This document shows, piece after piece, positions 44,552 through 46,006 of a stretch of 64,000 bases of DNA; the stretch's first letter is position 1, and the number at the start of each line of letters is the position of its first letter. The stretch is from positions 1 through 64,000 of the forward strand of contig NZ_JAMXLV010000014.1 of assembly GCF_024054535.1 (NCBI RefSeq), in the 5' to 3' direction. This stretch comes from Thermococcus alcaliphilus. Lineage in GTDB: Archaea > Methanobacteriota_B > Thermococci > Thermococcales > Thermococcaceae. The notes beneath the pieces were generated by a model. It saw only the letters and a list, made by a program, of their open reading frames with translations, did not search any database and was not told the DNA's origin. A program made the translations under genes and the position numbers.

Positions 44552-44587
44552 AATAGTAAATTTTATATAGTTTGAGTGCTTACTATT
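44552..44587 (+). promoter_or_regulatory. Inverted repeat bracketing the TATA box of the Cys-rich precursor gene
   Basis: Perfect 8-base arms AATAGTAA (44552-44559) and TTACTATT (44580-44587) flank TTTTATATAG (44561-44570), the only good TATA box before the gene at 44617. The arms would sit over the BRE and the transcription start. Binding of a dimeric regulator would block TBP/TFB or polymerase. The T-rich stretch 44483-44550 before it may terminate elp3. Confidence 0.6.
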
Positions 44588-44616
44588 TGTGAAAATTTCC
44601 TCACGCTTGGGGGGGA

Positions 44617-45336
44617 ATGAGGAAGAAGTTAAGCTTGCTTGTGGTTTTGTTGTTGGTTGGAGCGTACGCAGCTTACGCAGTAAGCCAGCCCAAGCCCCCA
44701 GAAGTTAAAGGTTGCGTGAATCCATTTAGAGAAGTCAAGCCTGTGGAAAAAGCTCCAGAGAACTGGTCTTCAGTGCGTGTTTTTACCAAAATCCTCGTTA
44801 GCAAGGACCTTAGGAGTTTGGCAAAGCCTTGGGAAGTTGATTATAAGAATGTCAAGATAGTAAAGCACGTTGTAGACTATAACGGCGAGAGGATTGAAAT
44901 GCTTGCTATGGCTTTTCCATTAAAGGATGGCAAGCACGTAATAGGCTATTATGAATTCTCAAAACCAGTACAAGGAGTTAAAACGAGGGCGTATCTGTTG
45001 GAGTTCTCTGTTTCGAATACTGAAAAACGCTTAACAACAAAAGCAATGACCACGAATGGCGAAGTGACACCACTAAGCAGTTGCAAGCACGAATGCACAA
45101 GTGACGCAGACTGTGGCTACTTCGCAGACTGTGTCTCGTACTGTTGTGACTATAACTGGGGATGTATGGTAGGTTGTTGTGGCGACTGTGCATTTCCATG
45201 CGGAGCATGTGCTAAAGGAAATGTATGGGCATGTGGAGAATGTCTCTATTGTGTTATAGTTTCATGTCCTTTGTGTGCTACTGGATGCTGTGGCGAAGAG
45301 GGGACTTACTGTGACTACTTAGCACCGGGACCATGA
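44617..45336 (+). CDS. Secreted Cys-rich precursor, halocin C8-like
   Basis: A 239-residue exported protein: signal peptide (KLSLLVVLLLVGAYAAYA), a propeptide-like domain (about 30-150) with a single Cys, and a C-terminal domain of about 85 residues with 20 cysteines, including CC pairs and C-x2-C steps (ACGECLYC, SCPLCATGCC). This layout resembles halocin C8-type archaeal bacteriocin precursors, where the Cys-rich part is released as the peptide and the N-terminal part gives immunity; the resemblance is architectural and not an alignment. GGGGGGGA precedes the ATG, and small membrane-protein genes follow. A structural cell-surface Cys-rich protein is the alternative. Confidence 0.6.
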   Translation: MRKKLSLLVVLLLVGAYAAYAVSQPKPPEVKGCVNPFREVKPVEKAPENWSSVRVFTKILVSKDLRSLAKPWEVDYKNVKIVKHVVDYNGERIEMLAMAFPLKDGKHVIGYYEFSKPVQGVKTRAYLLEFSVSNTEKRLTTKAMTTNGEVTPLSSCKHECTSDADCGYFADCVSYCCDYNWGCMVGCCGDCAFPCGACAKGNVWACGECLYCVIVSCPLCATGCCGEEGTYCDYLAPGP

Positions 45337-45346
45337 GGTGTGCAAA

Positions 45347-45682
45347 ATGAGAGAGTTAAGTAACAAGAGGTTTTATTTGGTTCTTGCATTATCTTTAATT
45401 TTTACGTGGTTGGCGGTATTGGACAATACACCGCCTTTTATAGCCTTTGGCACAATAGCATTCCCCATGGTGATGGGGTATTTCCTTATAACCTGGAGGG
45501 AATTTCCTGGCATTATTTTAGCGAGTGTAGTATGGGGCATTATGATGCTACTAGTGAACTTCCTTGCAGGCTCGTTATCCGAGCAAGTTGTTAGAACTGT
45601 TATTCTAAAGATGTCGAACGCTATTGTTGGAGTGTTGGCATTTATAACTTTTGAAAAATTAGTGAGGAAACGTGTACAATAA
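45347..45682 (+). CDS. Small four-helix membrane protein, possible immunity or export partner
   Basis: A 111-residue hydrophobic protein with about four membrane helices (FYLVLALSLIFTWLAVL, PFIAFGTIAFPMVMGYFL, FPGIILASVVWGIMMLLV, NAIVGVLAFITFEKL) and a basic C-terminus. The ATG at 45347 follows GAGGTGTGCAAA. It starts 10 bases after the Cys-rich precursor gene and is surely co-transcribed. No family recognised. Immunity, export or membrane anchoring of the neighbouring peptide is inferred from position only. Confidence 0.65.
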   Translation: MRELSNKRFYLVLALSLIFTWLAVLDNTPPFIAFGTIAFPMVMGYFLITWREFPGIILASVVWGIMMLLVNFLAGSLSEQVVRTVILKMSNAIVGVLAFITFEKLVRKRVQ

Positions 45683-45703
45683 TCGGACCATTAGGTGTGC
45701 AAA

Positions 45704-46006
45704 ATGAAAACAGACAGTTCCTTATTCCTTGTTTCCATTTTTGGAGTTCTTTTGGGTGGAGTGGCATTATTAACTGGACTATGCTAGGTATCCCTTCGTA
45801 ATATTGTACTTTATGCTCGTTTTAGTGTTATTGCCTGCGATTTTAAGAAAAACCTGCCCATAAGCACGGCTGGAATTCTTTTGAGCATCCCCTTGGCTTA
45901 TTTTGCAGTTGAAAGCATCAAAGGCCTCAGCGCATCGACGTTACTTCTAGTGGCATTTGAACTTGGCCTAATTGGTATATATATTGAAATGATCTGGAGA
46001 AGATAG
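45704..46006 (+). pseudogene. Frameshifted small membrane-protein gene
   Basis: An ATG at 45704 follows the same TAGGTGTGCAAA context as the previous gene. The first frame stops after 27 residues (SSLFLVSIFGVLLGGVALL). The +1 frame then continues RYPFVILYFMLVLVLLPAIL up to 45863, and a third frame takes over at the A-run near 45848 and reads KNLPISTAGILLSIPLAYF to the TAG at 46004-46006. Joined, they give about 100 residues with four hydrophobic helices. Two frameshifts indicate decay or, less likely, sequencing error. It is probably a tandem relative of the preceding gene. Confidence 0.65.

Follow-up and report, generated by a model that had tools for sequence, protein, structure and literature searches.

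A polymorphic, Cys-rich precursor of Thermococcaceae and its candidate membrane antidote: a probable bacteriocin-like system

The locus at positions 44552 to 46006 of the window (the whole 64,000-nucleotide stretch of Thermococcus alcaliphilus DNA that was analyzed) probably encodes a polymorphic, disulfide-rich bacteriocin-like effector together with a cognate membrane antidote. Comparison with related genomes, denoted below by G numbers with G000 as the window genome, demonstrated, besides a predicted export signal, a constant pro-region, a polymorphic core and a putatively cognate partner, that cassettes are exchanged, that partners occur as orphans and that the site can be empty. An antagonism system had been proposed here by an earlier, sequence-only reading, and the co-variation of core and partner, the swaps, the orphans and the empty site strongly support such a system at the sequence level; on the same evidence, the family appears to work like an archaeocin, outside halocin C8. 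Opinion could fall either way on the broader proposal that these are undescribed polymorphic disulfide-rich archaeocins confined to the Thermococcaceae and built from a constant pro-region joined to one of many cores, each with a small membrane immunity protein, with inter-genus exchange by pro-region recombination and possible release at a heat-labile Asn-Gly without a dedicated protease.

Constant and variable parts of the precursor

The precursor gene (44617 to 45336, plus strand) was recognized from its ORF, its translation and its homologues. It encodes 239 residues comprising a hydrophobic N-terminal signal peptide or membrane anchor (residues 1 to 24, 44617 to 44688), a conserved pro-region (residues 25 to 120, 44689 to 44976) and a polymorphic Cys-rich C-domain, hereafter the core (residues 156 to 239, 45082 to 45333), all on the plus strand. 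Twenty Cys were found in the translated ORF between residue 156 and the end, that is, in the last 84 residues, which confirmed the earlier reading of a secreted precursor whose C-terminal core is rich in Cys. Among 27 aligned members of the family, mean pairwise identity was 73% over the signal segment and 76% over the pro-region, versus 41% over the C-domain (28% without the Cys columns) and 30% over the middle of the C-domain (18% without the Cys columns). The Cys framework was kept, and the number of Cys was even, between 14 and 20, in 31 of 31 cores, as would be the case if every Cys were paired in a disulfide.

An Asn-Gly pair, at residues 147 and 148 of the window precursor (45055 to 45060, plus strand), lay 9 to 11 residues ahead of the first core Cys in 30 of the 31 loci and formed an invariant column in one alignment; the linker surrounding it was poorly conserved. 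At high temperature, the bond between Asn and Gly is chemically labile. This near-invariant pair is a natural candidate for the processing site, although its use as such is hypothetical; no dedicated protease or exporter was recognized at the locus. The AlphaFold2 model of the precursor was of moderate confidence (mean pLDDT of 69.5, with about 80 in the core) and predicted a strand-helices-strand core, for which searches of PDB and viral structures with the predicted structure returned no similar fold.

Relatives of the precursor were found in 42 of 94 Thermococcaceae genomes by protein search, and in 44 of 115 genomes of the phylum by profile search, all of them Thermococcaceae and distributed over 5 of 12 genera. 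Within genera the family is patchy, and many precursors are decayed. The gene is more than a chance reading frame: it is conserved, and its frame is open, in about 40 genomes of the Thermococcaceae. Viral contigs of IMG/VR and plasmids yielded no precursor relatives, and no Pfam, NCBIfam or PADLOC model matched the family; similarity to a known toxin, bacteriocin or immunity family was likewise not found in these collections, in PDB sequences or in the fold searches. PDB sequences gave nothing significant, and a weak match to omwaprin (E value of 0.29) was rejected as a chance resemblance of Cys pattern. A highly diverged relative was also observed at locus L078 (contig C147 of G091, 896 to 1429), where a precursor of 28% identity carries a different Cys-rich core and is accompanied by its own small membrane gene; by eye, the product of this gene is similar to the orphan that follows the G007 core remnant.

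Partners, cassette exchange and orphans

The partner ORF (45338 to 45682, plus strand) starts 1 nucleotide past the precursor stop and encodes 114 residues with four hydrophobic segments, predicted to span the membrane, in agreement with the small membrane protein noted earlier; it is the candidate immunity protein of what is referred to here as the class-A C-domain. Behind it lies a second small-membrane-protein gene, ORF3 (about 45704 to 46006, plus strand), which is a pseudogene and a probable orphan partner. Since ORF3 has gained 1 nucleotide near 45779 and lost 1 nucleotide near 45845, as judged by the intact 103-residue copy in the sister genome G004, and is thus frameshifted twice, its earlier description as decayed was correct.

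Partners were assigned at 31 loci as the first hydrophobic downstream ORF by a fixed rule of length, hydrophobicity and position, not by curated annotation. In nearly all loci they overlap or adjoin the precursor stop, four transmembrane segments were predicted in 24 of 35, and the one partner that was scanned had no recognizable domain. Across the 31 loci, partner similarity tracked core similarity (r = 0.75) much more closely than pro-region similarity (r = 0.32). When the set was dereplicated to 27 loci, partner and core had a partial correlation, given the pro-region, of 0.71 (reached in 0 of 5000 permutations), compared to 0.12 for partner with pro-region given the core. All 12 partner-similar pairs among these 27 loci were also core-similar, a property shared by 21 of the 351 pairs overall, and the AUROC for partner similarity was 1.00 for the core and 0.68 for the pro-region. 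Conversely, 9 of the 21 core-similar pairs had dissimilar first partners (for example, G029 versus G089 and G010, G068 versus G019, and G076 versus G065), indicating that the pairing is not absolute or that partners are sometimes lost.

Exchange was apparent from loci that occupy the same chromosomal site. Between the window and G007, the flanks were about 91% and the early pro-region 98% identical, after which identity fell to background through the core and the partner. G010 and G005 likewise share a site, with pro-regions that are 91 to 96% identical; in G010, a new core and partner are inserted before the old G005-type partner, which is kept as an orphan and is 95% identical in its first 83 residues. 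In G007, a core remnant is followed by a small membrane ORF of 65 residues resembling one that lies behind the G005 cassette. Core-plus-partner cassettes are replaced in place. Between G049 and G024, which belong to two genera, the DNA of the promoter and early pro-region was 91 to 100% identical, against about 80% for most of the upstream flank, which indicates recent inter-genus transfer. In G001 and G002, about 2 nucleotides separate the Elp3 and M1 peptidase genes, the pair that flanks the window cassette, and in G006, G008 and G011 the two genes are likewise neighbors; this adjacency in sister species indicates that the site also occurs empty.

Homologues of the window partner were found in 8 of 94 genomes. 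They stand beside a class-A core in the window genome, G004, G005, G008 and G055, beside a class-A remnant in G027, and behind another cassette in G010; the one in G025 has no precursor with it and adjoins a partner of a second type. Orphan partners of foreign type also lie behind other cassettes: one of G007 type in G089, others of G013/G024/G064 type in G019, G022, G023 and G074, and others of G048/G052 type in G073 and G079. At locus L094 of G025 (1266 to 1854), two different types of orphan partner occur in a genome that has no precursor, an array that is a putative resistance-only island, and a homologue of ORF3 was found in G003, another genome without a precursor. That partners are kept when foreign or solitary is easier to reconcile with a resistance function than with a part in processing or reception. 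The earlier proposal that the membrane-protein pair may serve in immunity or export is supported for the first partner, which behaves as an immunity candidate in that it follows the core and is kept as orphans.

Competing explanations and known systems

Two alternatives accept the pairing of core and partner and assign it another purpose. In a system of self/non-self recognition or signaling, the core would be a strain-specific ligand, such as a pheromone or a factor for adhesion or mating, with the partner as its cognate receptor. Recognition systems, too, would pair a polymorphic ligand with a membrane protein that co-varies with it, and similar alternatives have been discussed for the VARTIG module of Thermococcales (PMC8416519), but the persistence of partners in foreign-type arrays and in precursor-free genomes fits resistance better than reception, and the partner is tiny, with no domain recognized in the one scanned; we regard this alternative as unlikely. 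Alternatively, the partner might be dedicated to maturing, exporting or anchoring its C-domain, in which case the core could still be toxic. Such a role is suggested by the immediate downstream position, translational coupling and co-variation with the core. The export handle, however, would be expected in the constant pro-region, which partners do not follow (AUROC of 0.68 versus 1.00 for the core), and partners persist in G025 without any precursor, so that a role of this kind is quite improbable.

The two remaining alternatives would place the precursor in a familiar class. The precursor might be just a Cys-rich protein of the cell surface, or one that binds metal, which diversifies under selection (exerted by viruses, for instance) and whose neighbors are unrelated to it; fast-evolving surface proteins are common, and toxin homology was not found. 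This alternative is very improbable here, however, because the neighbor co-varies with the C-domain only and because cassettes are replaced, partners are orphaned and the site occurs empty; rather than a broadly distributed, intact and unprocessed surface protein whose membrane genes are not co-conserved, the family proved to be patchy, with partners that co-vary with the core. The halocin C8 type, to which the sequence-only reading had assigned the locus, has a similar layout of signal, long pro-region, Cys-rich hydrophobic core and small membrane protein (compare loci L034 and L038, described below). Neither the window genome nor any family carrier among the 61 genomes searched matched the halocin C8 model TIGR04449, and 0 of 27 family members matched it; hhalign against halocin C8 precursors, with a profile built from two halocin sequences, gave probabilities of 1.6% for the full length and 0.1% for the core. 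Given also the different Cys framework, membership in the halocin C8 family was rejected, and we leave it almost no probability.

The preferred reading, a bacteriocin-like effector with a membrane antidote, suggests the following mechanism. The pro-region would direct export and keep the core inactive, and the core would be released near the invariant Asn-Gly before the first Cys. Once oxidized, the partly hydrophobic core may act against rival strains of the Thermococcaceae, either on their membrane or on a receptor within it. The partner, with its three to four transmembrane segments, would protect the producer, and orphan partners would give resistance to the cores of rivals.

The resemblance to halocin C8 (TIGR04449) lies in a secreted precursor with a long pro-region, a C-terminal Cys-rich hydrophobic peptide and a small membrane gene downstream, as at L034 and L038. 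The present family differs in having 14 to 20 Cys in another framework and a polymorphic core on a constant pro-region, and it shares no sequence or profile similarity with halocin C8. As a separate observation, G085, the only one of the 61 searched genomes in which TIGR04449 scored above its cut-off, lacks the present family and has two genuine halocin C8-like precursors (L034 and L038), each with a small membrane gene downstream.

Class II two-peptide bacteriocins have a double-glycine leader and are exported by ABC transporters. Two of their immunity proteins, LagC and LciM, are 110 and 154 residues long and have four experimentally mapped transmembrane segments (PMC6957408). They resemble the partners described here as small four-transmembrane immunity proteins cognate to a small antimicrobial peptide, by analogy and not by homology; their systems are bacterial and have no disulfide-rich core, and homology to them was not found.

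Polymorphic toxin systems (Zhang et al. 2012, PMC3482391) are similar in having a constant N-terminal part, an exchangeable C-terminal effector, a cognate partner downstream, and orphan partners or remnant cassettes. Found here were a conserved N-terminal part joined to a variable, recombining C-terminal part (76% versus 18 to 41% identity, with breakpoints at orthologous loci) and downstream orphan cassettes (orphans in G010, G089, G019, G074, G073 and G025 and the core remnant in G007). The gene directly downstream is specific to the C-terminal type in the sequence comparisons and is a candidate for immunity. A known toxin domain and a dedicated secretion or delivery domain of such systems were not matched in the family by the Pfam, NCBIfam, PADLOC, PDB-sequence and fold searches. 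The present precursor differs in being only about 240 residues long with no long delivery domain, its effector is a predicted disulfide-rich peptide and not an enzyme, and small membrane proteins serve as the partners. VARTIG modules (arCOG07710, PMC8416519) likewise consist of a hypervariable secreted Thermococcales protein followed by membrane proteins in a PTS-like organization. VARTIG proteins are large, carry Ig domains and lack Cys-rich cores, whereas the present family matches no Pfam domain, Ig models included. A conserved GN motif is pointed out for VARTIG proteins (PMC8416519); the motif conserved in the present family is NG.

In the literature searched, the present family was not described, although the survey by Makarova et al. 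2019, which was outside the search, may list it as a candidate, and no bacteriocin-type weapon was described for Thermococcales; a 2025 review of the Thermococcales mentions neither toxin, bacteriocin, antagonism nor killing. As far as could be checked, a bacteriocin-like effector and immunity system is new to this order. Thermococcales are the best-studied hyperthermophilic archaea. If the proposal is true, they would have a polymorphic peptide effector and immunity system that is stable at 80 to 100°C and comprises many natural core-immunity pairs, strain competition in hot vents would become testable in the genetically tractable T. kodakarensis and P. furiosus, and the cores would be a source of very stable multi-disulfide peptide scaffolds.

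Elements upstream of the precursor

In 33 aligned upstream regions, the shared features are a BRE/TATA element and, as ribosome-binding site, a poly-G tract. In the window, the TATA box TTTTATATA and its upstream A-rich BRE (44561 to 44569, plus strand) form the conserved promoter element of the family, visible as a TTATATA column block in the alignment, and the poly-G ribosome-binding site (44609 to 44615, plus strand), assigned from the alignment and from tract lengths, lies directly 5' of the start codon. The operator that had been attributed to this cluster is a single 8-bp inverted repeat (44552 to 44587) with arms AATAGTAA at 44552 to 44559 and TTACTATT at 44580 to 44587, flanking the TATA box. 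Such a repeat turned up in 2.9% of Markov-shuffled versions of the region, and it is imperfect in G004 and lost in G007 and G005. Since chance yields it this often and since it is absent from the nearest relatives, an operator role is not supported and was rejected.

The length of the poly-G tract is mostly 4 to 12 G in nearly all loci (7 in the window, 12 in G005 and 10 in G089), and this variation could permit slippage-dependent, phase-variable translation. A palindrome, TTCGAT-N4-6-GTCGAA and variants of it (TTCGA-TCGAA), was also observed about 130 to 150 nucleotides upstream of some precursors, for example in G055, G064, G017 and G019. In the alignment of upstream regions it was absent from the window; at the other loci, it may be part of the promoter of a divergent neighbor gene.
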